From Methanosarcinales archaeon (GTDB lineage: Archaea > Halobacteriota > Methanosarcinia > Methanosarcinales > Methanogasteraceae), in assembly GCA_030625165.1 (NCBI GenBank), contig DAOURL010000004.1:1-38316 (forward strand): a DNA stretch of 38,316 nt. Direction: 5' to 3'. Positions within the stretch are counted from its first letter, which is position 1; every line of letters starts with the position of its first letter. The translations under genes and the position numbers were made by a program. The notes below the pieces were generated by a model. It saw only the letters and a list, made by a program, of their open reading frames with translations, did not search any database and was not told the DNA's origin. Below, one piece after another: positions 1 to 12,292 of the stretch.

Positions 1-555
1 ATTAAACGGATGTCGTCACTCGTATTTATGATGCTTGACGGTTTGATCAATTATCTGAAGATAAAAGATGACGAAATCTTAAGAGAAATCATCTCGAGGG
101 ATGATGAGGTCGATCGGATGTATCTGCTGGTTTCAAAACAGTTCATCACCCGGTTGAACCTGGGCAGGATCTTAAAAATTGATGAGCTGAGCCTCATCGA
201 GTCGTTCTATTACAGGTTGGCAGCGGGAAACCTCGAGCGGATTGGAGATCATGCGGTCAAGATCGCGGATGCGTTTAGCCATACGGGCGTCCCGGATGCT
301 GCACTCGGCATCAGGGAATCTGTCAAGGTTTCGCAGAATCTCGTTGCAAACAGCATCGAATCGCTCATGAAGTCGGATGCCTCTCTTGCAAATGACGTTC
401 TCTCGAAGAATGATACGGCGAAAGAACTGTTATCAAAGTCGGTGGCTATCGCCGCAGCCACTTCCTCATCGGAAATCGTCTTTGACAGTCTCAGCAGGAC
501 CGGGGATTATGCAGCAAATATCGCAGAACTTGCAATCGATCTATCGCAACTATAA
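1..555 (+). CDS. phoU: PhoU-family phosphate regulator, C-terminal part (5' end outside window)
   Basis: The frame is open from base 1 with no stop, so the gene begins upstream; the ATG at 10 is internal. The visible ~184 residues are helical and carry the PhoU signature twice over: a run with R-D-D-E-V-D-R-M-Y, then S-F-Y-Y-R-L..N-L-E-R-I-G-D-H, which matches the family's metal-binding E/D-rich helix. PhoU proteins damp the PstSCAB phosphate transporter and link it to regulation when phosphate is plentiful. Archaeal versions often have an AbrB-like domain in front, which would lie outside the window. A pstB gene may precede it, but that cannot be seen. Its stop lies inside the next gene (47-nt overlap). 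The rest of the pst genes sit 20 kb away at 20964-24008. Confidence 0.85.
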   Translation: MKRMSSLVFMMLDGLINYLKIKDDEILREIISRDDEVDRMYLLVSKQFITRLNLGRILKIDELSLIESFYYRLAAGNLERIGDHAVKIADAFSHTGVPDAALGIRESVKVSQNLVANSIESLMKSDASLANDVLSKNDTAKELLSKSVAIAAATSSSEIVFDSLSRTGDYAANIAELAIDLSQL

Positions 556-943
556 GGCGATCCCGCTCGTCCTCTCTGCTGCGGTTGTCATCGACTACGC
601 GCTCACATTCTATCTTGCGGGTAGCATCGAGATGATTCTTAAGTATGAATACAGTCCGACCCTTGTTTATGCGGTCGATCGTGGCATTGTAATCCCTTAT
701 CTCATGTTTACGGTATTCTTTTACTACGCTGCCGGCTATACCGTGCTGAAATATCTTCGGGGTTCAGGGATATACTACATCGGCGTCTTCATCATCCTCT
801 TGATGAGTGTCACGCACGTTCTTGGCGGGCTGTCATGGTATGTCCTGAACGTACACTACTCGAATACGGTGCTTGCGCTCTCGCTCACCTCTGTTGTGGT
901 CACGATCGCAGTCTTTGGGTACGAGGTGGTCAGGCAGATATGA
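509..943 (+). CDS. 4-helix integral membrane protein of unknown function, overlapping phoU
   Basis: This 144-residue protein starts at the ATG at 509 (first residues MQQISQNLQS), inside the last codons of phoU, so the two are probably translationally coupled. It has about four hydrophobic segments (roughly residues 18-38, 58-82, 90-108 and 118-140). A short polar N-terminus precedes them, and it ends in G-Y-E-V-V-R-Q-I. I do not recognise a named family. The tight coupling to phoU suggests a role with phosphate transport, which is inference. Oddly, DNA matching its last ~85 bp recurs as debris at 6746-6801 and 9897-9984, so this gene or a relative has been copied and lost nearby. Confidence 0.7.
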   Translation: MQQISQNLQSIYRNYKAIPLVLSAAVVIDYALTFYLAGSIEMILKYEYSPTLVYAVDRGIVIPYLMFTVFFYYAAGYTVLKYLRGSGIYYIGVFIILLMSVTHVLGGLSWYVLNVHYSNTVLALSLTSVVVTIAVFGYEVVRQI

Positions 944-947
944 TCCT

Positions 948-976
948 CTATATAGTTTATTTGTGCAAGGTTTATC
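948..976 (+). promoter_or_regulatory. CTATATAG box and BRE/TATA-type promoter of the 60-residue membrane protein
   Basis: CTATATAG (948-955) is followed 14 nt later by TGTGCAAGGTTTAT (962-975), a BRE plus TATA-like arrangement. The ATG at 1001 lies about 25 nt past it, so the mRNA is leaderless or has a very short leader. The same layout with the same 14-nt spacing is found at 12034 before the paralogous gene. Confidence 0.55.
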
Positions 977-1000
977 AAGAATCAGAATGAGGGTTTAGCC

Positions 1001-1183
1001 ATGAAAACGATTCAAAGTATGCTCGTTGTAACGATACTGGCGCTGTATACGTTCTGCACATCCTGCTGGTATGCGCCGTCTATGATATTCGATTCGGTCA
1101 TGCCGTTCATCTTCGTTGCGCTCTTTGCGTATCTTCTGGCTGTGTATGTGGTGTACAGACGCCGATGCCGGGTGCGGGCGTAA
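1001..1183 (+). CDS. Small two-helix membrane protein (copy 1 of a local family)
   Basis: This 60-residue protein has two hydrophobic helices (about 5-22 and 30-53), a central C-T-S-C-W-Y-A-P-S motif and an Arg-rich C-terminal tail (Y-R-R-R-C-R-V-R-A). It is very similar over its full length to 12086-12268, differing at a handful of positions, and the upstream promoter DNA is conserved too. Conservation of both reading frame and promoter supports a real gene. No family or function is recognised. The two Cys flanking Thr-Ser could bind a metal or form a disulfide, but this is speculation. A decayed third copy of the motif DNA lies at 14822-14856. Confidence 0.7.
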   Translation: MKTIQSMLVVTILALYTFCTSCWYAPSMIFDSVMPFIFVALFAYLLAVYVVYRRRCRVRA

Positions 1184-1254
1184 TGATCATATCAGTACAT
1201 GGCGCAGGTGGGCGGCATGGGGTCGCAACGTGCTGGTTTTGTACTTATATACTC
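1184..1254. other. Spacer between the small membrane gene and the cassette's left repeat
   Basis: No gene or clear site is seen in these 71 bases; they separate the stop of the 60-residue gene from the left inverted repeat. Confidence 0.5.
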
Positions 1255-1440
1255 GACACCGGCATAAACTGCGATTTTAGTTCTTTGCGTCCTCGCGTCT
1301 TTGCGTTCTCAATTTAACGCGAAGGCGCAGAGATGCGAAGGGTGTTATCTCTGTCGTCACGTCTTTCGTGTTGTTGTACATCCGACTGACACATTTGCAA
1401 AAAAGCTCAGTTTGTGGCGGTGCGAAGTATATATCCAACG
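1255..1440 (+). repeat. Left inverted repeat bounding the biosynthetic cassette
   Basis: This segment matches the reverse complement of 5738-6032. Blocks in order are GACACCGGCATAAACTGCG (1255-1273), a C/G-rich tandem stretch of TTTGCG units with an internal AATTTAACGCGAAGGCG core (about 1280-1340), then CATCCGACTGACAC, TTTGCAAAAAAGCTCAGTTTG and GGTGCGAAGTATA (1379-1430). The right copy carries the same blocks in reverse order on the other strand, with an extra ~100 bp near its outer end and a duplicated CAGTTGGATGT unit. The match is too long and ordered to be chance. Confidence 0.85.
1422..1436 (+). promoter_or_regulatory. Likely BRE/TATA promoter for the cassette, inside the left repeat
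   Basis: GCGAAGTATATATCC sits about 40 nt before the first cassette ATG at 1473 and has a purine-rich BRE followed by an 8-bp TATA box. In the right repeat the equivalent bases read GCGAAGTATACCCCC, so the TATA is spoiled there. The inner end of the left repeat thus appears to supply the promoter. Confidence 0.5.
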
Positions 1441-1472
1441 TCTTTAAGTATTTGCAGCCAATTAAGAGAGCG

Positions 1473-2465
1473 ATGAATCCCAACCACAGCAATCTTGACA
1501 ATGGGGTTGTAACTACCGCATTACTATTGGCAGCTGGAAAGGGAAGTCGTCTTTATCCTCTGACACACGACACACCGAAATGCCTCACAATGGTTCATGG
1601 GGCATCCATACTTGAACGACTTGTCATCAATTTAAGTAAGCAAGGCTTCAAACGTCTTGTTGTGGTTACGGGGTATCAGGAAAAATATATTCGTGCGTTT
1701 TTAGGAACGTGGGCTGGCGGCATGACAATCGATTATATTTTCAGCCCTCTGTATGCGACAACCAATAACATCTATTCACTCTGGATGGCACGTGAAATTA
1801 TTAATGAGCCGTTTCTGCTGATTGAAAGTGATCTTGTTTTTGACGTATCTCTTCTGGATGACATGCGTTGTCCTGGCAGAATTGCCGTTGCACGCATGCA
1901 ACCGTGGATGAATGGTTCCACTGTCACAGTCAATCAATCCCAACATGTTAAGAAATTCCAAAACGGTATTGCCGGGACTTTTGATGAGATCAGATACAAG
2001 ACTGTTAATATTTACAGTTTTTCGCTCTCTTCATGGCATAGTATTACAGAAAGACTGGACCGGTACATTTCAGCCGGTAGAGTAAACAACTATTATGAAA
2101 CCGTATTTGCGGAAATGGTGGCAGATGGCGGTCTTTCTCTTAAAACTGTATCTTTTGACGGCAAGCCATGGTATGAAATAGACACAGTTGAGGATCTGGC
2201 AGAGGCTGAGAAACTATTTTCGCCAGATAAATATGAAACAAAAATTCCTTCCAATATCACGCAGCATGTCTCTGGGATATCAAAACCGTTTTTTCAACAT
2301 GCTAAGAGCATGGGCGGGGAAACGATCACTCGTTCACTTTCTAAATTAAGGTCATTGCCTCAGTCAAATTCTTTAAGCTTAAAGCTGATTCGTGAGGCTA
2401 ACATTCAAGAAAACGAAGTATCACCTAAAAACAAATCCGGAGGAAGAATGCATGGCGCAGTATAA
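1473..2465 (+). CDS. LicC/PntC-like nucleotidyltransferase (probably a CTP:phospho-alcohol cytidylyltransferase)
   Basis: This 330-residue protein begins with a Rossmann-type nucleotidyltransferase domain (about residues 14-250). The nucleotide-binding signature L-L-L-A-A-G-K-G-S-R-L-Y-P-L-T is followed by P-K-C-L. Y-A-T-T-N-N-I-Y-S-L-W is typical of the LicC/PntC branch that makes CDP-choline or CDP-phosphonates, and the metal-binding Asp is in E-S-D (D120). Activation of a small phospho-alcohol or phosphonate with CTP is the family expectation; sugar-1-phosphate is the alternative. The last ~80 residues are an unusual Ser/Lys-rich tail of unknown role. The ATG at 1473 is chosen because the conserved domain begins shortly after it and because the promoter-like site lies at 1422-1436. 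The stop overlaps the next gene by 14 nt. Confidence 0.8.
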   Translation: MNPNHSNLDNGVVTTALLLAAGKGSRLYPLTHDTPKCLTMVHGASILERLVINLSKQGFKRLVVVTGYQEKYIRAFLGTWAGGMTIDYIFSPLYATTNNIYSLWMAREIINEPFLLIESDLVFDVSLLDDMRCPGRIAVARMQPWMNGSTVTVNQSQHVKKFQNGIAGTFDEIRYKTVNIYSFSLSSWHSITERLDRYISAGRVNNYYETVFAEMVADGGLSLKTVSFDGKPWYEIDTVEDLAEAEKLFSPDKYETKIPSNITQHVSGISKPFFQHAKSMGGETITRSLSKLRSLPQSNSLSLKLIREANIQENEVSPKNKSGGRMHGAV

Positions 2466-3570
2466 TTATGAGACTCAATCTGAAAAATATGATTTCATTG
2501 CCGGACAGCATGGTGGTTACCATCGTCATGGGTTTATAGATCATGCTTATCTTTACAATCTATATTTCCCGCCAGAGGCAGTTTTTACAAACTTTAAAAA
2601 TAAAATTCATGACATTGTCCTTAACTATCCGGTTGCACAGGATGCTCTTGCCGGTCTTATAGGTAATTTGATCCATCAGCCTGCTGAACGAATCGTTGTA
2701 GGAAACGGCGCAGCCGAACTTATTAAAATTCTATCAGGCAGTATATCCAGCAAGTTGATTGTTCCAGTCCCCTCTTTTAATGAATATGCGAATGCTGCGC
2801 CGGCAGGCCAGGTAGTCGAATTTCCTCTTGAATATCCATCTTTTCAATTGGATGTGGATAAGTTTGCTGCTGAAGCAATCAGGGTTAAAGCCGATATTGC
2901 GGTTGTGGTATCACCTAATAATCCAACATCTATGCTGGTTCCTAAGTCCGATCTAATAGATCTTGCACAAAAACTTGCAAATCATGACTGCATGCTGATC
3001 GTCGATGAATCATTCATGGATTTTGCACCTAATCCGGATCAAACAACTCTGGAACATGAAATCAATCGTTATCCAAATATGGCAATCCTTAAAAGCATGA
3101 GCAAAGCCTACGGTATCTGCGGTCTCAGGATCGGTTATATGTTAACTGCGAATTTGGGTTTTGTTGAAGCTGTAAGAAAAGGCGTACCTATATGGAATAT
3201 TAACGGATTTTCCGAAGAGTTTCTGCGGATTTTGCCCGATTACAGACAGGAGTTTGTCGAAAGCTGTAAACAGGTACGGTCCGACAGGGGCAATCTGTAT
3301 AAAAACCTGTGTGCGATTCAGGGAATGACCGTTTACAAACCCGATGCAAACTTTGTATTCTGTCGCCTCCCGGATTACGCACAAAGTGGTCCTGAAGTCA
3401 CGCGGAGATTGTTTATTGAGCATAACATGTACATAAAACACCTCCAGGACAAAACTCTACCTGATTCTGACCGTTATATTCGTATTGCCAGCCGTACTGA
3501 AACAGAAAACTGCAAATTAGTTGAAGCATTGGCAGATATCATTGATTCGAATAGAGTGGAAGTATCCTGA
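2452..3570 (+). CDS. PLP-dependent aminotransferase-fold enzyme, CobD / histidinol-phosphate aminotransferase-like
   Basis: This 372-residue fold-type I PLP enzyme starts at the ATG at 2452, preceded by GGAGG at 2441-2445. Visible landmarks are an N-terminal H-G-G (as in CobD threonine-phosphate decarboxylases), P-N-N-P-T at 155-159, V-D-E at 184-186 (Asp pairing with the pyridine nitrogen), the Schiff-base lysine K218 in S-M-S-K-A-Y, and G-L-R-I-G-Y just after it. CobD-like enzymes decarboxylate threonine phosphate to aminopropanol phosphate, and relatives decarboxylate phosphoserine to phosphoethanolamine; close relatives instead transaminate. Between a cytidylyltransferase and a CDP-alcohol transferase, making an amino-alcohol phosphate is the most sensible role (inference). 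Cobalamin side-chain synthesis is an alternative, but no other cobalamin genes adjoin it. Confidence 0.8.
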   Translation: MAQYNYETQSEKYDFIAGQHGGYHRHGFIDHAYLYNLYFPPEAVFTNFKNKIHDIVLNYPVAQDALAGLIGNLIHQPAERIVVGNGAAELIKILSGSISSKLIVPVPSFNEYANAAPAGQVVEFPLEYPSFQLDVDKFAAEAIRVKADIAVVVSPNNPTSMLVPKSDLIDLAQKLANHDCMLIVDESFMDFAPNPDQTTLEHEINRYPNMAILKSMSKAYGICGLRIGYMLTANLGFVEAVRKGVPIWNINGFSEEFLRILPDYRQEFVESCKQVRSDRGNLYKNLCAIQGMTVYKPDANFVFCRLPDYAQSGPEVTRRLFIEHNMYIKHLQDKTLPDSDRYIRIASRTETENCKLVEALADIIDSNRVEVS

Positions 3571-4226
3571 TGAACGATTCAGAACGTCAACGATCACATC
3601 AGACCGGGATGATTACTTTCGCCCGAGACCTTCCAAATATCTGTTCGCTTGTAGGGCTGCTATGTGCAGTCTTTAGCATATATTATGCCATATTAGGGAA
3701 TTTCTCGGTTGCGATAATCGGGATGATCTGGGCTGTTTTTTTTGACTGGGGCGACGGAATCATTGCCCGCCGGATGAAGGGGCGGACAGATGAATATCGA
3801 GCTTTCGGAGGACAGCTTGATTCATTGATAGATATTGTAAGTTTTGGAATTTGTCCCGCCGTTTTTCTCTTGAGCTATGGAGAATTCAATCCATGGTTCC
3901 TGCCCGGAGCGTTCGTGATTGTCGCTACCAGCGCAATACGGTTGAGTTATTTCAATGTATTCGGCTTGATTGATGATTCGACATACAGGGGATTGGCACT
4001 TGACAATAATGTCATTATTCTTGCTTTTGTCTTTTTGTTTGAAGGTTTTTTCAGCCATCCGATTTTTTCAGTATTTATATATGCAATGTTGATGCTTTTG
4101 GCGATCTTTAATTTAGCACCAGTACGAACGCCAAAGTTTGCCGGAAGGTGGTTTTATGTCCTCCTGGTTTATATTATGGGATTGACAGTCATTTATAGCT
4201 GGATATTGTGGGGTAAATATCCATAA
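3570..4226 (+). CDS. CDP-alcohol phosphatidyltransferase family membrane enzyme
   Basis: This 218-residue protein has about six membrane helices. The family motif is complete: D59, D62-G63, A66-R67, G80, D84 and D88, the four Asp residues binding metal and the CDP substrate. The gap between Ala-Arg and the next Gly is 12 residues rather than the usual 8-9, a small insertion. Enzymes of this family swap CMP from a CDP-alcohol for another alcohol, giving phospholipids (phosphatidylserine synthase type) or soluble phosphodiesters (di-inositol phosphate type). Here the CDP donor is probably made by the nucleotidyltransferase two genes upstream. The start ATG overlaps the preceding stop by one base (TGATG), so translation is coupled. 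Confidence 0.8.
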   Translation: MNDSERQRSHQTGMITFARDLPNICSLVGLLCAVFSIYYAILGNFSVAIIGMIWAVFFDWGDGIIARRMKGRTDEYRAFGGQLDSLIDIVSFGICPAVFLLSYGEFNPWFLPGAFVIVATSAIRLSYFNVFGLIDDSTYRGLALDNNVIILAFVFLFEGFFSHPIFSVFIYAMLMLLAIFNLAPVRTPKFAGRWFYVLLVYIMGLTVIYSWILWGKYP

Positions 4227-4266
4227 AATTGAAGCAATTATTAACTGGAAAGAGGGGACGCAAGAT

Positions 4267-5538
4267 ATGTATGGCTACCAGTCACTCAGGAAGGGTATCT
4301 CAAACAATGACAATGAGTTAATTATTTACGGAGCCGATAATTTTTCACAGTTCTCGCGCCGCGATGCATCTGTTAATTCAAAATGTGACAGAGCGCTTCC
4401 GGTAGCATGCGGGGATGAACTGGTAGTTCTACGCGGAAAGCTGGATCATACGTACCATAAATGGCTGCGCTCTAATGGCCTCGGATCGGATTATGTTGTT
4501 GAATATAATGCCCAGTTGCAAGATATGACGCTCTCGGAGCTTATCATTAATAATCCTGAACCTGTCAAGAATATTATCCGGCAGATCGGGAAAAAACCTG
4601 TATATGTGCCATGGTTTTCAGGGCGCATGGAAACTGAAGCTGCAAAAGCTCTTGGCGCGGATCTTTTCGGAGCAACTGAAACTGCAACACTAAAATATAA
4701 TGATAAGTCAGCTTTTAAGACCGTATGTCGACAATTAGGCGTGTCTGTTGTTGAAGGTACTTTATTCGAAATGCATCCTGAAAACAATAAAAATCGTATA
4801 GAGATGAAAAACATTATTAGCGGCTATCTGGCAACCTGTAAGACTGTTATTATTCGCGGTACTTTAGGTGAAGCTGGTATGTCGTTATATAAGACCCATG
4901 GCAATGATATTTCTGAAATATATCAAGAAATTGCGATTAGCGGCGAAAAATCTATTATCATTGAGCCTTTTCTGAACGTCTCATCTTCTCCGAATGATCA
5001 GTGGGTAATCAGCAGAGATGGAAATATAAACTTTCTTGGTATGCGGGATCAAATATGCGAAAGAGGTATGGTACACATTGGTACTCTCAAAGGAGCAAAA
5101 ACTTCACCGGATATTTTAGATTACATTACAAAAACATCTGTAAAAATTGTAAATGATATGGCTGAATCCGGATATCGGGGTGTAGTCGGTATCGATTATA
5201 TTGTATCAGATGGTGGCATATTTCCAGTTGAAAATAATGCTCGTTTTAACGGTTCCTCTTATGTGAGCATGATCGTGGATAACATTGAAGAATTGATTTC
5301 TCCCATCCCATACTGGAAATTTATAAAAATCAAGACATCCGCATGTTCATTTATTGAGCTTACGGAACGTATTGAACCAGTACTTTATGACGGCAAAAAA
5401 TTAAATTCCGTATTTCCTTTTAGCTGCGATACATTGCCGTTGTCCGGTGATTTTGCCGTTATACTCTTAGCTGAGAACATGGATGAGATTTTCAACATGG
5501 AAGAGTCCTTGAAAGAGATGGGGGTAAAAAGGGACTGA
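4267..5538 (+). CDS. ATP-grasp ligase with a pre-ATP-grasp region (PGM1-like)
   Basis: This 423-residue protein begins 40 nt after the CDP-alcohol transferase, preceded by GAAAGAGGGG. The first ~140 residues look like the pre-ATP-grasp region of PGM1-type peptide ligases (a motif V-Y-V-P-W-F-S-G near residue 115). The ATP-grasp core follows, with substrate-binding Lys in the L-K-Y-N-D-K-S-A-F segment, I-I-R-G, and the metal-binding P-V-E-N-N-A-R-F-N (E322, N324, N328). Family members join a carboxylate to an amine through an acyl-phosphate. The expected role is to acylate the amino head group or product made by the cassette (inference). The frame ends abruptly at TGA, and an uninterrupted frame continues in another phase to 5783 (see separate entry). 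Confidence 0.75.
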   Translation: MYGYQSLRKGISNNDNELIIYGADNFSQFSRRDASVNSKCDRALPVACGDELVVLRGKLDHTYHKWLRSNGLGSDYVVEYNAQLQDMTLSELIINNPEPVKNIIRQIGKKPVYVPWFSGRMETEAAKALGADLFGATETATLKYNDKSAFKTVCRQLGVSVVEGTLFEMHPENNKNRIEMKNIISGYLATCKTVIIRGTLGEAGMSLYKTHGNDISEIYQEIAISGEKSIIIEPFLNVSSSPNDQWVISRDGNINFLGMRDQICERGMVHIGTLKGAKTSPDILDYITKTSVKIVNDMAESGYRGVVGIDYIVSDGGIFPVENNARFNGSSYVSMIVDNIEELISPIPYWKFIKIKTSACSFIELTERIEPVLYDGKKLNSVFPFSCDTLPLSGDFAVILLAENMDEIFNMEESLKEMGVKRD

Positions 5539-5783
5539 TCAAACCTATATACCAAGAAATTATCGATCAAAAACAACAAGGAAGTATCGGCTCTGTAGAA
5601 AAACTATCAAAATCAACACACATATCAGATGTGTCCATTGTACCAAAACGCCCTCCGATGCAGGAAAAACTCCTATTAAGCAATATCCGGGAAGATGCAG
5701 AGAATCGTTTCCCGGAGACGGTGGGATGCTTGTGGGGGTTGGGGGTATACTTCGCACCACTACAACTGAGCTTTTTTGCATAA
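5532..5783 (+). other. Open frame continuing the ATP-grasp gene in another phase (possible frameshift)
   Basis: Just before the TGA at 5536-5538 the sequence runs GGGGGTAAAAAGGG. Shifting frame there opens about 84 codons without a stop, reading G-L-I-K-P-I-Y-Q-E-I-I-D-Q and ending at the TAA at 5781-5783. The composition up to about 5700 looks like ordinary protein; the end runs into the right inverted repeat. It may be a real C-terminal extension cut off by an indel in the homopolymers, a programmed shift, or chance. Confidence 0.35.
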
Positions 5784-6032
5784 GTGTCAGTTGGATGTCA
5801 GTTGGATGTGCAACCAGAGCTTAACACCGCCCTTCGCGTCTCTCTCGCTTTTGCGACTTCGCGTTAAATCGAGAACGCAAAGGCGCAAGGTCGCAAAGGC
5901 GCAAGGTCGCAAAGGCGAGAAAGAACAAAAACCCTCATGTTGGCGATCATGTGTATGGACATCGTGGGTATTGGTTGCTGTGTCTTCGTGGTCCGATCGG
6001 CCGTACAAAAAGCGCAGTTTATGCCGGTGCCG
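5738..6032 (-). repeat. Right inverted repeat bounding the biosynthetic cassette
   Basis: This is the reverse-complement partner of 1255-1440. Conserved landmarks are TATACTTCGCACC (5746-5758), GAGCTTTTTTGCA (5768-5780), CAGTTGGATGT twice (5788-5809), CGCGTTAAATCGAGAACGCA with following GCGCAAGGTCGCAAAG units (5860-5916), and CGCAGTTTATGCCGGTG at the outer end (6013-6029). An extra stretch at about 5917-6010 has no counterpart on the left. Confidence 0.85.
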
Positions 6033-6071
6033 GGTATAGTCGAGGGGTTTGGCGACTAAAATAAGAGGATA

Positions 6072-6117
6072 TATGAAATTATACCTTTTCCAATTGGAAT
6101 AAAAAGCGAATTTCATA
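6072..6117. repeat. Nested AT-rich palindrome outside the cassette
   Basis: The arms TATGAAATT (6072-6080) and AATTTCATA (6109-6117) are perfect complements. Almost centred between them is the 12-bp palindrome TTCCAATTGGAA (6088-6099). It could be a terminator-like hairpin for the minus-strand gene ending at 6127, or a protein-binding site. Confidence 0.5.
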
Positions 6118-6126
6118 ATAGAGAAA

Positions 6127-6381
6127 TTAAATTAAATTATTGCTTGGCGGTTTTTGCTTAAGAATATCGATTAACTCAAAGATTCCAATCTTTTCATCTT
6201 GTTTTATTTTTATAACCCAACCTTCAGAATTAATCTTAGCCAAATATAATTTATTTAATTTTGTATCAGATTCCAAGTAATTGTTTATCATTAAATGTTT
6301 CATTAAATTTTTTTGGACGAAATTTTCCACAGACTTTCTTCGAAATATCCAGTTTGTACATATAGATGTAAGACTAACCAT
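6127..6381 (-). CDS. Small AT-rich hypothetical protein (possibly a gene remnant)
   Basis: This 84-residue open frame starts at the ATG at 6381, which overlaps the stop of the broken frame before it (ATGGTTAG). It is Lys/Asn/Ile-rich and markedly AT-rich compared with all neighbours, which suggests recent transfer. No family is recognised. It may be the second gene of a coupled pair, or the C-terminal half of one protein split from 6374-6646 by a frameshift. Confidence 0.35.
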   Translation of the reverse strand: MVSLTSICTNWIFRRKSVENFVQKNLMKHLMINNYLESDTKLNKLYLAKINSEGWVIKIKQDEKIGIFELIDILKQKPPSNNLI

Positions 6382-6646
6382 AATGAGTAGAATTAAAATT
6401 GCCTATTACTTGTAGAAATGGACTTGCACTCCAAAGCGCCAAAAATACATTCTTAATTGGCTCAATACTCCATCCAATATATAGTGGTATAACAACTCCA
6501 ATGAGAATAGCAATATATAATCTGCTGAATGCAAATACTTCGTTTCTACCATGACTAGTCAGATATTCATATTTTTTAATTAGTATATCTAATGTTAAAT
6601 TGAATTTAGGATCCTTATTTGTGAGTTCTTTGTCTTATTCTACCAT
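6374..6646 (-). pseudogene. Broken small membrane-protein gene with in-frame stop at codon 4
   Basis: Read from the ATG at 6646, the minus strand gives M-V-E, then TAA (6635-6637), then about 86 uninterrupted codons ending at TAG (6374-6376). The part after the stop begins D-K-E-L-T-N-K-D-P-K-F and contains a clear transmembrane helix, F-S-R-L-Y-I-A-I-L-I-G-V-V-I-P-L. A TATA-like stretch lies upstream on the minus strand. No other start codon is visible after the TAA, so the gene seems inactivated, unless initiation uses a non-canonical codon. Confidence 0.45.
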
Positions 6647-6891
6647 ATAAATTAAAAAGGTTTATATCATATTAGACATTATGCAAACACACCTATAGCG
6701 ATAACTCAGTGGATTTGCCCATTTCTGATGTTTTCTGAAAGCATGCTACTTGAATACGGTGCTTGCGTTTTCTCTGATCTCTGTTGTGGTCACGATCGCA
6801 GAAGATGTAGATAGCTATAAGATTGCCGTTGGTTCGGGGTTTTAATAGGGGGTGATTTCGCTCCTTCGTATTCTATCACAGCCACCCAAAC
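6647..6891. other. Gene-free stretch with a gene fragment
   Basis: No open gene is seen. The middle holds the fragment at 6746-6801. The rest has no feature I can support. Confidence 0.4.
6746..6801 (+). pseudogene. Fragment of the phoU-linked membrane-protein gene (3' part)
   Basis: These 56 bp match 856-911 of the intact gene at 509-943 (CTACT.GAATACGGTGCTTGCG.. through ..GTTGTGGTCACGATCGCAG) with a few mismatches. The surrounding DNA does not continue the gene. Confidence 0.75.
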
Positions 6892-7653
6892 TCACCAAAA
6901 CTGCTTCAGGCACACGACACCATCATCAATTTCAGCATAAGTGTTGTGGATTGGATAACCACGGTGCCACGATCCGCAATCTGCCACCCCCTCCTTCGCG
7001 TTAAGCCGTGGTAGATGCGTGTGTCCGAAGACCGTCCCACCGTCCGGGAATTCGGCAGTGTCGATAAGGTTGTTCCCGGTTGGCGAGCTGTTCTCAAGTC
7101 CGGGTTTGTCACTGAACGAAAACATATCTCGCATATCGCTCTGAATCCGCTTACCGGAGATCCACGCCCGCCCTGCTTTAACTGGCGGTAAAAACCTCAA
7201 GTACGTCTTGAATGTCTTACGTACGTAATCCCCCTCCGTTGTGTTCGCATAGCAGAACGCATCGAAATACGCGGGATTCATGGACGTATCAAATTCCCAA
7301 CCATGCAGGAATGTCCATGTTCTACCATCATTGGTCAATTCAAGATCGGTTGAAAACCGTATGTGTTTATGTTTCGATTCCGCTTTCCGCATAATGTAGT
7401 CGTGGTTTCCGGCAATGTAATGGATGTTTATACCCCGATCGGCGAGATAAATTAGTTTATTGATTATACGCTCGCTTTCCAGTACCATGTCCGTCACGTC
7501 GCATCGCCAGAAATCGAGGATGTCACCACACAGCACAAGATCGGTGATGTTGTCAGCGTCTTTTCGCATTAGAACGTCGTTCAGAAACGCCACGAATGAC
7601 TCTATATCGCCATTTGGCGCGCCGATGTGGACATCTGATATTGCAACAATCAT
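6892..7653 (-). CDS. Calcineurin-like metallophosphoesterase (LpxH/UDP-diacylglucosamine pyrophosphatase-like fold)
   Basis: This 253-residue cytosolic protein has all the dinuclear-metal motifs of the family: D7-x-H9, G43-D44, G82-N83-H84-D85, H117 and G210-H211-T212-H213. The order and spacing resemble LpxH-like phosphoesterases. The substrate cannot be told, since archaea lack lipid A; a nucleotide or lipid-precursor pyrophosphate is possible. The ATG at 7653 is chosen because the beta strand carrying the first metal ligand follows at once, and because it overlaps the upstream stop (ATGA). The two genes form an operon driven from the promoter at 8050-8066. Confidence 0.8.
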   Translation of the reverse strand: MIVAISDVHIGAPNGDIESFVAFLNDVLMRKDADNITDLVLCGDILDFWRCDVTDMVLESERIINKLIYLADRGINIHYIAGNHDYIMRKAESKHKHIRFSTDLELTNDGRTWTFLHGWEFDTSMNPAYFDAFCYANTTEGDYVRKTFKTYLRFLPPVKAGRAWISGKRIQSDMRDMFSFSDKPGLENSSPTGNNLIDTAEFPDGGTVFGHTHLPRLNAKEGVADCGSWHRGYPIHNTYAEIDDGVVCLKQFW

Positions 7654-8000
7654 ACTACCGCCACCAACGCCCCAAGTCTCAGGAAGTCCGCACAATCAAG
7701 ACACGCCGCTCTGCCGTCCACAGACTCGACATAAGTATCCCGAGGTCCGCAGATGTCCGCCGGTTGTCCATCATCCATCCATCTATCCAGTGTCTTATAT
7801 CGCGGCGCAACGCCTCCATGGAACCATACACGACACAGACCACTGAAGATCCCGGACAATGTCTTGATCGTGATGCCGTGGTTCGGATCGTTCATGTTAT
7901 TGTCGATCATCCACCGAATCAAACCCCGCTGCTGTTTCACAGTGTCTTGCCTGATGCCGAGTTTACCCGCCACCAGTTGTTTATATTCTTGTGGTTTCAT
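7650..8000 (-). CDS. Hypothetical protein co-transcribed with the metallophosphoesterase
   Basis: This 116-residue protein begins M-K-P-Q-E-Y-K-Q-L-V-A-G-K-L-G-I and is preceded by AGGAGAG about 11 nt upstream. Its first half is basic and helical, like a small DNA-binding domain. The second half contains Trp-rich and Cys residues (C-R-V-W, I-C-G-P, C-L-D-C). No family is recognised. Its ribosome binding site, upstream promoter and ATGA overlap with the phosphoesterase support it as a real first gene of the operon. A nucleic-acid-binding partner is only a guess. Confidence 0.6.
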   Translation of the reverse strand: MKPQEYKQLVAGKLGIRQDTVKQQRGLIRWMIDNNMNDPNHGITIKTLSGIFSGLCRVWFHGGVAPRYKTLDRWMDDGQPADICGPRDTYVESVDGRAACLDCADFLRLGALVAVV

Positions 8001-8049
8001 TATAATGCCTCTCCTGATTGTGCAGCTTTCCTATATAACTTAGCTTCCT

Positions 8050-8066
8050 CTATATATAAGTTTGCG
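8050..8066 (-). promoter_or_regulatory. BRE/TATA promoter for the hypothetical protein-metallophosphoesterase operon
   Basis: On the minus strand the sequence reads CGCAAACTTATATATAG: a BRE (GCAAA) followed by a strong TATA box. It lies about 50-65 nt upstream of the start codon at 8000, giving a short leader that includes the AGGAGAG ribosome site. Confidence 0.7.
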
Positions 8067-8078
8067 TGAAAGATATAA

Positions 8079-8219
8079 TTATCCAAAAAATATATAATCA
8101 TGGTGTTCACTCCCGTTCAGCGATTCTTTCAGTCTTTCAAGTACTCTAAAGAGCCGATCTTCAATATCGTCAAGCAGTTCGTTGCCGGTAATCAGATTTG
8201 AACGTGACGACACCAACAT
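8079..8219 (-). CDS. Possible small acidic protein or gene remnant
   Basis: A 46-residue frame starts at the ATG at 8219 and reads M-L-V-S-S-R-S-N-L-I-T-G-N-E-L-L-D-D-I-E-D-R-L, with a helical heptad-like stretch. The frame is also open further upstream, into the opposite-strand ATPase gene. No clear ribosome site or family is seen. It could be the tail of a lost gene, and confidence is low. Confidence 0.25.
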   Translation of the reverse strand: MLVSSRSNLITGNELLDDIEDRLFRVLERLKESLNGSEHHDYIFFG

Positions 8220-8334
8220 TGTCCCCGCCACAGTTGTAGAGGGGTTGTGACTGATATTATTGTTCAGTACCAATGAAAACATTCCAACCATATTTTCATT
8301 ACCAGTGAAAACTTTATGTAGGGTGGGAACAGAT

Positions 8335-9618
8335 ATGCCAATCATGAATAAGAGACAACTCAAGGAGATCGTTGTCCAGCAAAGAGAAGAGCTAAAAAGG
8401 AAGGACAGGGGACTAAAAAGAGAAAATCTGGAAGAGATCGGAAGATACCTGAAAATCCCGCACGTACTAATAATCAGCGGTGTGAGAAGGTCTGGAAAAT
8501 CGACCCTGCTGACACAGATCATGTCAAAATGGTTCGATGAAGATTTTTATTATCTGAACTTTGAGGACGAGCGACTGATATCGTTTTCAGCAGAAGAGGA
8601 TTTTGATCTCCTTTATCAGGTGTTTCTGGAACTTTACGGGGAACAGAAAACCTTCTTCTTCGATGAAATCCAGAACGTTTCCGGCTGGGAACGGTTTGTG
8701 AGACGGATGTATGAACGCGACAACAAGTTCGTAATCACAGGGTCGAATGCGAGACTCCTGAGCAGGGAACTCGCTACGCACCTGACCGGACGGCATATCG
8801 CAAAAGAGGTATATCCCTTCTCATTCAGGGAATTTTTGAGGCTCAAAGATGCTGAACCCGAAGAAAATTTCGAGTATATCACAGAAGAGCGGGCTAAAAT
8901 CGCAAAACACCTCTCCCAATACATCGAAGACGGCGGTTCTCCAGAGTATCTGATATATGGCGAGAAGGAGATACTTCACAGGCTCTTTAGCGATATACTC
9001 TTCAGGGACATACTTGTGAGGTATGGGATAAGGGAAACAAAGACATTTCAGGAGATTGCCAACTATTTGATGGCGAACGTCTCAAACACGACCAGTTACA
9101 ACCGATTAAAGAACATCTTCAATCTGGGCAGTGTGAATACCGTAAAGAACTACACCGAGTATCTGGAAAGCAGTTTTTTGATCTTTTTTGTCGATCGATT
9201 CTCATATTCCGGAGGTGTGCGACATGCGTCCCCTAAGAAAGTTTACTGCGTGGATACCGGGCTCAGGAATGTGGTATCCTTTAAATTTTCAGAAGACATC
9301 GGAAGAGCGATAGAGAATCTCGTATTTATAGAATTGAAGCGCCGTTCATCGCAAACAGAGATCTATTACTGGAAGAACCGGGGAGAGGTGGATTTTGTGA
9401 TAAAGAAGGGTCCGAAGGTTGAGGAACTGATCCAGGTCTGTTATTCCATAAATGAAGAGACCGAGAAGCGGGAGGTGAGTGCGCTCGTGGAGGCGATGGA
9501 TGAGTTCGGGCTTGTGGAGGGGCTGATCATAACCGATGACATCGAGAGGGAAGAGGAGATCGGTGGCAGGAGGATCGTGTTCATGCCGCTCTGGAAGTGG
9601 CTGCTTGCGACCCCCTGA
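8335..9618 (+). CDS. AAA+ ATPase with DUF4143 C-terminal domain
   Basis: This 427-residue protein is the standard length for the AAA_14/DUF4143 family. Walker A is G49-V-R-R-S-G-K55-S-T, Walker B is F-F-F-D110-E111, and a sensor-like V-I-T-G-S-N-A follows. The C-terminal part holds the DUF4143 domain with a nuclease-fold-like Y-Y-W-K-N-R-G-E-V-D-F-V-I segment. These ATPases are common and scattered in archaea; their function is not established, and they behave like mobile accessory genes. The ATG at 8335 follows GGGTGGGA; 8344 is an alternative. Pieces of a relative's upstream DNA and 3' end recur at 12293-12400 and 15999-16057, which suggests repeated spread and loss here. Confidence 0.8.
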   Translation: MPIMNKRQLKEIVVQQREELKRKDRGLKRENLEEIGRYLKIPHVLIISGVRRSGKSTLLTQIMSKWFDEDFYYLNFEDERLISFSAEEDFDLLYQVFLELYGEQKTFFFDEIQNVSGWERFVRRMYERDNKFVITGSNARLLSRELATHLTGRHIAKEVYPFSFREFLRLKDAEPEENFEYITEERAKIAKHLSQYIEDGGSPEYLIYGEKEILHRLFSDILFRDILVRYGIRETKTFQEIANYLMANVSNTTSYNRLKNIFNLGSVNTVKNYTEYLESSFLIFFVDRFSYSGGVRHASPKKVYCVDTGLRNVVSFKFSEDIGRAIENLVFIELKRRSSQTEIYYWKNRGEVDFVIKKGPKVEELIQVCYSINEETEKREVSALVEAMDEFGLVEGLIITDDIEREEEIGGRRIVFMPLWKWLLATP

Positions 9619-9707
9619 GTAGTGTAGGAAGTTGGGTCTTTGCATACCATCGCGTTGCAGTGACTAAAACCATGAGACTTTTTGATATTTTCGAAATAAG
9701 GTTTTGG

Positions 9708-9803
9708 AAAACCACAGAGAGCACAGAGGGACACAGAGGCGGCAAAAGAGAAAAATAACAACTCTCTGTGATCCTCTGTGTCCTCTGTGTCCTCTGTGGT
9801 TTA
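9708..9803. repeat. Long hairpin repeat of ACCACAGAGG/CCTCTGTGGT type
   Basis: The left arm (about 9708-9742) is built of AACCACAGAG, GCACAGAGG and ACACAGAGG units. The right arm (about 9765-9803) carries the complementary CTCTGTG, CCTCTGTGT and CCTCTGTGGTTT units. It lies 90 nt after the ATPase gene. Related elements occur at 22957-23038 and 24101-24149. Confidence 0.8.
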
Positions 9804-9896
9804 ATCTTCCTTACCATGACCAGATCATCTGGAAGGGTGAAAAAGTGTGTGCAACGCGAATTACCAGAGAGCCGGAAAGTTGTGATCCAACCCATA

Positions 9897-9984
9897 CTAC
9901 AGGAATGCAGTGCTTGCGCTCTCGCTCACCTCTGTTGTGATCACAATCGCAGTCTTTGGCTACGAGATTCTCAGGCAGATTTGA
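9897..9984 (+). pseudogene. Second fragment of the phoU-linked membrane-protein gene, forming the end of sulP
   Basis: These 88 bp match the last part of 509-943 down to the stop codon (..GCTTGCGCTCTCGCTCACC.. to ..CAGGCAGATTTGA). The convergent sulP gene reads into it, so the last codons and stop of sulP (9971-9984) are supplied by this debris. Confidence 0.8.
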
Positions 9985-11737
9985 CCGGATCATCGCGACC
10001 TGCCCCCTCCCCTACCGCAGGCAGCGCGTTCCTTGATGCGACAAAAGCATCGACGCCGTCCCGGGTGGTTTCGTAGATGTGACCTGACCCAATCGCATCA
10101 ACGACCCCCATCCGGTGCATCTTGTCTCGCAGCGGGTCTCTCACATGGGAGAGGAACATAACAATATTTCTGCGGCTCAGTTCCGTGTTCAGCTTTATCA
10201 GACGATCAGCGCCTGTGATGTCGATATCGTTCATGGCTTCTGCGTCAATCAGAACAGTTTTCACAGGTTCCCCGGCTTTGGCAATACAGCGCGTAACCGC
10301 ACTTGCAAAGAAGTTGCAATTAAAGAAGATGAGTCTGGCATCAAAGCGGAAGATAAGCAGCCCAGGGATAGTTTCTGCATCAGGCCGCCTGCGGATATCC
10401 CGATAATATTTCCTCTCACCAGGAACTCTGCCCAGAACGGCTGTGCCCGGGCGACATGCCTTCTTGATCAGCACCAGAAGTGAGAGGACGACTCCAAGAC
10501 CCACGCCCTGCAACACGCCGAGGGTAAGCACGCCGATGAAACAGACCATGCTCAGCGCAAACTCTGTGCGACTGAATTTCATCGCTTTCTTGAGTTTGGC
10601 AGTCTGGTCAAAACCGACCATCAGCACTATCACGATGGCTGCCAGCGTCGCTTCGGGCAGGTTGGTAAATAGCGGCATCAGTACAAGGAGCGTCAGGATC
10701 GCAAAGATTGCGCTTACGACATGGCTGATCTGCGTCTTCCCGCCCGCGCCCATAGCAACCGACGTCTTCGACAGGCTGCCCGCTACGACAAATCCCGAGC
10801 TTAAGCCCGCGCCCAGATTAGCAGTGCCAAGGGCAAATAACTCCTGATCGGGGTCGATTCTTCCACCCTCCTTCGAGGCAGCGCCAGCGGCTGCGCCAAC
10901 CGTCTCTATGTAGCCGAGCAGAACTATCGCAAGGGCGCCTGGGACAACAGCCATATAATCCATCAGGCTCGCGTCTGGCAAACTCATGGGCGGCAAGCCG
11001 GTGCTGAGTGTGCCGACCACGTCAACGCCTTTAGTTGTCAGGTCCAGCGCTGAAACCGCCACAATGGAGAGGATGATGGTTGTGAGTGCAGCCGGCAACT
11101 TCGAGACATACCGCCTGACCACAAAAATTAACACGATGCTGCCAACACCGAGTGCCAGCGTTGTTAGGTTAGTATCAGGCAGCCCCCGGATAATCACCAA
11201 AAGTTTTTCAAAGAAATTGCCACCATCACAGTCGATGCCAAACAGCTTGGGCACCTGACCGATGATGGTGACCAGGACAACCCCCTCGAGAAAGCCTGCC
11301 ATCACCGGGATCGAGATAAAGTCGGCTATCCACCCCATCCGCAGCGTTCCAAACACTATAAGGAACACCCCCACCGCTATCGCCATCGCCGTTGTTAGCG
11401 CCAGATACTCAGCCGCACCACAGGCAGCCAGTGCGCCAACTGCGCTTGCGGAGATCAGGCACGCTGCCGAATCCGCGCCCACAACGAGCGTGCGTGACGT
11501 GCCGAAGATGGCATACAGGAACAGCGGTATAGGGATTGTGTACAACCCCATTATCGGGGGCACTCCTGCAATCCCGGCATAAGCCATCGCCTCCGGCACG
11601 AGCACCGCCCAGATGGTCAGTCCGGCAATGAGATCGTGGCGCAGCCAGGAGGATTTGTATTTTGGTAGCCATGTCAGGATCGGCAGGTACAGGTGAAGCA
11701 GGTTCTTATGGTCAGTCGAACTTGTTTCGTTATTCAT
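9971..11737 (-). CDS. SulP-family anion transporter with STAS domain
   Basis: This 588-residue protein is typical of SulP/SLC26 permeases. It has a Sulfate_transp core with about 12 helices (residues ~25-430) containing P-E-A-M-A-Y-A-G-I-A-G and G-A-D-S-A-A, then a STAS domain (~445-560) with the I-D-A-E-A-M-N-D-I-D strand-helix motif. It imports an anion such as sulfate, bicarbonate or molybdate; which one cannot be told. The ATG at 11737 is preceded by AAAGGAGAT (good ribosome site). The extreme C-terminus is not conserved-looking and ends inside a copied gene fragment, so the original tail may have been replaced. It is transcribed opposite to its neighbours and looks like a single-gene unit. 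Confidence 0.9.
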   Translation of the reverse strand: MNNETSSTDHKNLLHLYLPILTWLPKYKSSWLRHDLIAGLTIWAVLVPEAMAYAGIAGVPPIMGLYTIPIPLFLYAIFGTSRTLVVGADSAACLISASAVGALAACGAAEYLALTTAMAIAVGVFLIVFGTLRMGWIADFISIPVMAGFLEGVVLVTIIGQVPKLFGIDCDGGNFFEKLLVIIRGLPDTNLTTLALGVGSIVLIFVVRRYVSKLPAALTTIILSIVAVSALDLTTKGVDVVGTLSTGLPPMSLPDASLMDYMAVVPGALAIVLLGYIETVGAAAGAASKEGGRIDPDQELFALGTANLGAGLSSGFVVAGSLSKTSVAMGAGGKTQISHVVSAIFAILTLLVLMPLFTNLPEATLAAIVIVLMVGFDQTAKLKKAMKFSRTEFALSMVCFIGVLTLGVLQGVGLGVVLSLLVLIKKACRPGTAVLGRVPGERKYYRDIRRRPDAETIPGLLIFRFDARLIFFNCNFFASAVTRCIAKAGEPVKTVLIDAEAMNDIDITGADRLIKLNTELSRRNIVMFLSHVRDPLRDKMHRMGVVDAIGSGHIYETTRDGVDAFVASRNALPAVGEGAGRDDPVKSA

Positions 11738-11981: not shown

Positions 11982-12033
11982 CATAGTCATCCTGATCGTT
12001 GGGAGCCGTTTAAACGTGTGTATATATGATCTT

Positions 12034-12062
12034 CTATATAGATCCTATGTGCAAGGTTTATC
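12034..12062 (+). promoter_or_regulatory. CTATATAG box and BRE/TATA-type promoter (second copy)
   Basis: CTATATAG (12034-12041) precedes TGTGCAAGGTTTATCAAG (from 12048) by the same 14 nt as at 948. The conserved stretch TTTATCAAGAATCAGAATGAG leads to the ATG at 12086. Confidence 0.55.
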
Positions 12063-12085
12063 AAGAATCAGAATGAGTCTAAACC

Positions 12086-12268
12086 ATGGAAACGGTCACC
12101 AGTATGCTCGTTGCAACGATACTGGCGCTGTATACGTTCTGCACCTCCTGCTGGTATGCGCCATCCCGGATATTCGATTCAGTTATGCCATTCGTCTTTG
12201 TCGCGCTATTTGCATATCTTCTGACCGTGTATGTCGTGTACAGACACAGACGCCGGGTGCAGGTGTGA
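12086..12268 (+). CDS. Small two-helix membrane protein (copy 2 of a local family)
   Basis: This 60-residue protein is a close paralogue of 1001-1183, with the same C-T-S-C-W-Y-A-P-S motif, the same two helices and an Arg/His-rich tail. Substitutions are mostly conservative (Ile to Val, Phe to Val) and the frame is intact, so both copies seem to be kept by selection. It lies directly before an ATPase remnant and the first phosphate-type operator. Function is unknown. Confidence 0.7.
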   Translation: METVTSMLVATILALYTFCTSCWYAPSRIFDSVMPFVFVALFAYLLTVYVVYRHRRRVQV

Positions 12269-12292
12269 GTGATCTACGTCTCGATGACGGCT

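Follow-up and report, generated by a model that had tools for sequence, protein, structure and literature searches.

How did a tightly packed biosynthetic operon come to lie between two long inverted repeats, with no transposase of its own? The window is the whole 38,316-nucleotide stretch that was analysed (contig DAOURL010000004.1 of assembly GCA_030625165.1, C233 below), and it comes from a 2.3-Mb draft genome (86% complete, 258 contigs) of a member of the Methanogasteraceae, probably an ANME-2c-type methane-cycling archaeon. An earlier note, made from the letters alone, had proposed either a cargo-carrying MITE-like unit moved in trans or a unit that inverts. Our reading, to which we give a probability of about 0.86, is that positions 1250-6036 (4787 bp from outermost end to outermost end) form a non-autonomous composite transposon. 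Two MITEs, here called MITE-L and MITE-R, would have bracketed the operon elsewhere, and their outermost ends would have moved the whole block to a TA at this site.

The same ordered blocks do occur, inverted, at both flanks: 1248-1281 with 6005-6038 (88%), 1270-1329 with 5852-5911 (82%), 1378-1412 with 5764-5798 (91%), and 1412-1439 with 5738-5765 (82%). Both perfect pieces quoted in the earlier note are present. BLASTN aligns MITE-L and MITE-R with an E value of about 1e-22, and the separate outer 34-bp block with 7e-7, far above chance. The flanks first given as 1255-1440 and 5738-6032 thus hold real repeats, although their exact borders are 1250-1429 and 5748-6036. As had been claimed, they enclose only a tightly packed operon without a transposase, comprising four intact ORFs of 330, 372, 218 and 423 aa. 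The lower GC ascribed to the operon also stands (0.38-0.44 inside, against about 0.50 for the bulk of the window), although GC falls further, to 0.35, on the right-hand side at 6001-7000. The features of the locus are these:

944-9984: probable outer insertion region, with an 89-bp direct repeat at its edges (comparison with relatives)
1248-1249: target TA, left duplicate (a single TA in joined-flank homologues)
1250-1429, forward strand: MITE-L, complete, ends TACTCGACACCGG / GGTGCGAAGTA (81% to C62:2191-2385; IS630-type ends)
1430-1431: TA on the inside of MITE-L (homology with MITE-free operon relatives begins here)
1443-1454, forward strand: candidate archaeal TATA box (TTTAAGTATTTG) of the operon (inspection and conservation in relatives)
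1473-2465, forward strand: gene 1, nucleotidyltransferase, LicC-like cytidylyltransferase (Pfam NTP_transferase / NTP_transf_3)
2452-3570, forward strand: gene 2, PLP enzyme, threonine-phosphate-decarboxylase / HisC-like (family and structure matches, 6oux)
3570-4226, forward strand: gene 3, CDP-alcohol phosphatidyltransferase, archaetidylserine-synthase-like (family and structure matches, 7b1k)
4267-5538, forward strand: gene 4, ATP-grasp ligase-like (weak Pfam ATP-grasp_3, below cut-off)
5539-5745, forward strand: source-locus DNA 3′ of the operon, partly common to G012 and cut at MITE-R
5746-5747: TA on the inside of MITE-R (comparison with G012)
5748-6036, reverse strand: MITE-R, complete, of another subtype and inverted relative to MITE-L (block alignment and end matching)
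6037-6038: target TA, right duplicate (joined-flank homologues)
6039-6057: right-hand part of the target motif that the unit interrupts, TGTACTTA-TA-GTCGnGGGGTTTGGyGACT (intact in 8 relatives' loci)

The two repeats differ in length and kind. MITE-L is 180 bp long; MITE-R, in the opposite orientation, measures 289 bp (293 bp with its flanking TAs), has a longer interior, and is about 74% identical to MITE-L in the common part. A stand-alone copy elsewhere in the same genome (C62:2191-2385, 195 bp) matches 1248-1431 over its full length at 81%, which shows the left repeat to be a small element in its own right, complete with terminal repeats. MITE-L and MITE-R are thus two complete, different MITEs, each bounded by a terminal inverted repeat pair of its own, and not the two ends of one element. 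Both are short, multi-copy, lacking in transposase, and bounded by terminal inverted repeats. Of 17 genomes in the family, 15 contain the left terminal repeat, and none contains a reversed control pattern. All 20 complete element copies listed have TA on both sides with unrelated sequence beyond, as expected of an element that targets TA. The family is multi-copy, with members usually found singly.

In G013, a genome of the same family, one MITE subfamily is strongly amplified, with 38 left-end matches in a 1.6-Mb draft. The MITEs also contain a second repeat layer, the palindromic repeat CTTTGCGTC/GACGCAAAG (window 1290-1340 and 5830-5915), which stands alone at many sites in the family (C62, C91, C245, C30). 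The matches in C91, C245 and C30 were rejected as MITEs, as they have the CTTTGCG-rich palindrome of the interior but lack full transposon ends.

The MITE ends match those of a DDE_3 insertion sequence of IS630/Tc1-mariner type, of which the same genus has an intact copy (G006:C114, L198). Intact elements of this kind carry the transposase with matching terminal repeats for which the earlier note had proposed a search. The G006:C114 copy is 1162 bp long and carries an intact 361-codon ORF matching Pfam DDE_3 (E=7e-26) and HTH_23. The ORF has D, D and E motifs, which end in PPYSPNLNLIERLW, a pattern that we take to assign it to the IS630/Tc1-mariner transposases. Most of the transposase copies found have the matching end about 113 bp ahead of their ORF start; several G006 copies have a masked interior. 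This element shares its terminal repeats and TA flanks with our unit but is otherwise its opposite: autonomous, about 1.2 kb long, with its own DDE transposase and no cargo. The only transposase copy found in the 86% complete draft of the host genome, C253, is frameshifted and has the matching end at the same distance of about 113 bp. With a transposase in the genus and only a broken copy found in this draft, supply in trans is plausible.

If the unit moved here as a block, its flanks should once have been continuous. Window 1-1248 is colinear with same-genus contig G006:C81 at 87% identity, and the match ends at the start of MITE-L. After CTTATG, G006:C81 continues GTCGCGGGGTTTCGGGTGACT; to the right of MITE-R, after GGGTATA, the window reads GTCGAGGGGTTTGGCGACT. 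A query made by fusing both outer flanks, with the TA counted once, aligns across the join to G006:C81 (83%, 120 nt) and to G012:C47 (74%). Six further loci elsewhere (G003, G006, G015, G011, G012, G001) also span the join, with an intact motif TGTACTTA(TA)GTCGCGGGGTTTGGYGACT. The dinucleotide occurs once at the empty site, as TG in G006 and G012 and as TA in G003:C46 and G006:C92, and in the window it flanks the unit as the TA duplication expected for a MITE of an IS630-type element. On the right-hand side of the junction the homology spans just 12-43 nt, after which the relatives diverge. A match of at least 11 of 12 positions to the expected continuation was found after only one of the 3,621 TA sites in the window, which is the right border or a site equally rare. 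It was found after none of 11,581 TA sites in nine other loci. The empty site, which the earlier note had expected to join 1254 to 6033, is thus found in relatives joining 1249 to 6039. Because relatives span both flanks without interruption, the comparison indicates that the flanks were formerly one sequence, split at a TA by a 4787-bp segment that the outer MITE ends bound on either side.

The motif TGTACTTA(TA)GTCGCGGGGTTTGGYGACT (window 1240-1249 plus 6039-6057) could form an AGTC/GACT stem. It recurs at several loci in the family (G003:C46, G006:C92, G015:C218, G011:C7 and others).

The inner junctions bear on where the MITEs joined the operon. Operon DNA at 92-95% identity occurs without MITEs in G012 (same family), in G005 (same genus), and in G024 and G049 (another family); the operon is also present in Methanococcoides and Methanolobus at 81-88% DNA identity, and no MITEs were found in any of these operon loci. 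Homology with the MITE-free relatives begins at window 1430, where a TA adjoins MITE-L on its inner side. The upstream stretch common to the relatives, GGCGGAATTATTTGATGT, is absent from the window, with MITE-L in its place. Downstream, G012 matches to window 5744 and then continues, whereas the window switches to MITE-R at TA 5746-5747. Inner borders cut at the MITE-flanking TAs indicate that the MITEs inserted beside the operon at another location and that the block then moved here.

The same junctions weigh against the simplest alternative, in which two copies of a common intergenic repeat inserted independently beside an operon already in place, with no joint movement. The MITE family is multi-copy and mostly found singly, and MITE-L and MITE-R belong to different subtypes, as such insertions would allow. 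But two late independent insertions would leave operon-native DNA outside the MITEs, and no stretch of the target locus would be uninterrupted in relatives. The reverse holds: the outer flanks are continuous in relatives, and the native neighbors of the operon stop at the inner MITE ends. The earlier note would have dropped its cassette idea had the repeats been a common intergenic repeat, found singly at unrelated sites with no empty-site allele; they are indeed multi-copy and occur singly elsewhere, but relatives do have an empty-site allele. We consider independent insertion very improbable.

An equally improbable alternative is that the operon arrived by another route, such as an integrative element or homologous recombination between copies of a MITE, using resident MITEs. 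The locus is otherwise rearranged, with an insertion of about 9 kb between 943 and 9985 relative to several genomes of the same family. In G001, G011 and G004, the counterpart of window 943 runs almost directly into the SulP gene (~9985), which makes 944-9984 look like an older and larger region of insertion that encloses the 4787-bp unit. Recombination into a single resident MITE should, however, leave direct and similar copies, and the copies here are inverted and about 74% identical in their common part. There is also no integrase in the unit.

Repeat pairs in the window lie at 855-943 / 9896-9984, 845-911 / 6735-6801, and 938-1188 / 12024-12274. The repeated element at 855-943 and its counterparts is the 3′ end of the gene after phoU, recurring further right. 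No Rfam family was found within the window.

Still less probable is an assembly chimera, in which the assembler joined unrelated pieces at MITE repeats. The genome is a draft in 258 contigs and the MITEs are repeats, but a chimera would need two wrong joins that together yielded both halves of one target motif, via repeats only about 74% alike. Inversion of a phase-variable segment by recombination between the inverted repeats, the other proposal of the earlier note, would be permitted by their geometry but found no support and is the least likely of all, as the unit holds no recombinase, repeat identity is low with long indels, the inner junctions show one orientation of the segment, and inversion explains neither the empty site nor the inner junctions.

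The composite transposon could have formed and moved in three steps. First, as the inner junctions show, MITE-L and MITE-R inserted separately at TAs to the left and right of the operon, at another location. Second, an IS630-type transposase acting in trans would have bound the outermost ends, one per MITE, excised or copied the 4.8-kb block (presumably by cut and paste), and inserted it at a TA of the PhoU-side locus. Third, as the sequence comparison shows, the TA was duplicated and the genes stayed intact. The idea of a cargo-carrying MITE-like unit moved in trans accordingly gains an empty site, a TA duplication and a MITE-free source context at the inner borders; its borders, though, are two complete, non-identical MITEs in a composite rather than one MITE with long ends. 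The unit is a single instance, as no second copy of the whole was found, nor any donor site with both MITEs.

Since the candidate TATA box falls within the unit, the operon probably carried a promoter of its own along. The TATA that had been placed at the inner end of the left repeat does not come from the repeat alone, as MITE-free G012 also reads TTATATCC at that place. The best solved relative of gene 1 is 1jyk, a CTP:phosphocholine cytidylyltransferase. Gene 3 resembles archaetidylserine/phosphatidylserine synthases (7b1k), and amino-acid ligases are among the NCBIfam and PDB matches of gene 4 (8yi6). None of the NCBIfam matches shown for the operon genes reaches its curated cut-off. The product of the cargo is probably a CDP-activated headgroup, destined either for a membrane lipid or for a molecule of the cell surface. 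There is an even chance that the route combines CTP activation with PLP-dependent decarboxylation of a phospho-amino acid to give a CDP-amino-alcohol, which gene 3 would transfer to a lipid or surface acceptor; gene 4 would add an amino acid. FrbH, an enzyme with a decarboxylase half, unites the kinds of step read for genes 1 and 2. It cytidylylates 2-amino-4-phosphonobutyrate (PMC6697681).

The operon itself looks laterally transferred, and such transfer between cells would be separate from the jump described here. The window operon is 94-95% identical to those of G024 and G049 from another family, compared with 92.7% to same-genus G005 and 92.5% to same-family G012. UvrA and HMG-CoA reductase, the intended baseline for host divergence, are missing from several genomes, so the argument rests on operon DNA identity, set against the genera and families concerned. 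Contigs assigned by binning to Desulfobacterota and other sediment bacteria hold relatives of gene 3 at 59-82% protein identity. A search of viral contigs found no gene 3, and a search of plasmids found no operon DNA.

Genes 1-3 recur at 59-82% protein identity (L145-L189) in bins assigned to Desulfobacterota, Planctomycetota, Thiotrichaceae and others, where binning errors are possible; the spread is striking for a lipid-type operon. In Methanosarcina sp. STD2_179 (L154), genes 1-3 occur in two adjacent copies (4274-7039 and 7873-10625).

The earlier note knew of no named element of this form, but there are two precedents, the mobile insertion cassette (MIC) and the TIME-COMP. A MIC has by definition a single pair of IS ends. 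Our unit resembles it in carrying passenger genes between IS ends, without a transposase and with presumed movement in trans, but differs in having a complete two-ended MITE at each border. TIME-COMPs are pairs of Tn3-derived miniature elements shown experimentally to move cargo (PMC4133298) and recently catalogued with resistance genes (PMC13367494). In them, two MITEs, direct or inverted and sometimes different, bracket cargo without a transposase (PMC4133298, PMC13367494). The outermost repeats serve as the ends, a related element supplies transposase in trans, and the duplication lies outside the outer ends. The unit at 1250-6036 has this layout of a MITE pair, outer ends acting as one element and an outside duplication. 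However, TIME-COMPs are bacterial, with Tn3-family repeats and a 5-6 bp duplication, while the unit is archaeal, with IS630-type ends, a 2-bp TA duplication and an intact four-gene biosynthetic operon. Transposition is experimental for TIME-COMP and read from sequence here. Lacking the Tn3 repeats and the 5-bp duplication, the unit is not a TIME-COMP; by its structure it is an IS630-type analogue that would work on the same principle.

Gene cargo between two MITEs is also known from class 1 integrons in Acinetobacter (PMC10969869). Those are bacterial integrons with resistance genes between identical MITEs, whereas our archaeal unit has divergent MITEs and metabolic cargo. According to PMC13367494, structures bounded by other MITEs had not been reported in Enterobacteriaceae, and in the open-licence literature we found no published account of this operon or of an archaeal composite of IS630-type MITEs. 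That literature records the movement of cargo flanked by a MITE pair for Tn3-derived elements and for bacterial resistance genes. In the present unit, both outer and both inner junctions, four in all, are legible in the genome of an archaeon, and they involve an IS630-type element and an intact four-gene operon. As a new variation on a named design, the archaeal composite is structurally well supported.

Two other repeat pairs were considered and rejected as composites. The pair around uvrA in G000:C62 (2191, 5831) has a second copy without terminal repeats. For an inverted MITE pair around two large genes in G013:C204, no locus spans the joined flanks, which means that MITE pairs alone prove nothing. 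The joined-flank, or empty-site, search is a simple test, and it set 1250-6036 apart from a chance MITE pair.

The unit at 1250-6036 would give a concrete example of how operons can be relocated in methane-cycling archaea that are uncultured. It is tempting to speculate, though we think it doubtful, that IS630-type MITEs are a general gene-capture system in ANME-2-type archaea, with a resident transposase shuffling any segment between two of them. If this were true, gene capture by MITE pairs would help explain the spread of near-identical biosynthetic operons between archaeal families.
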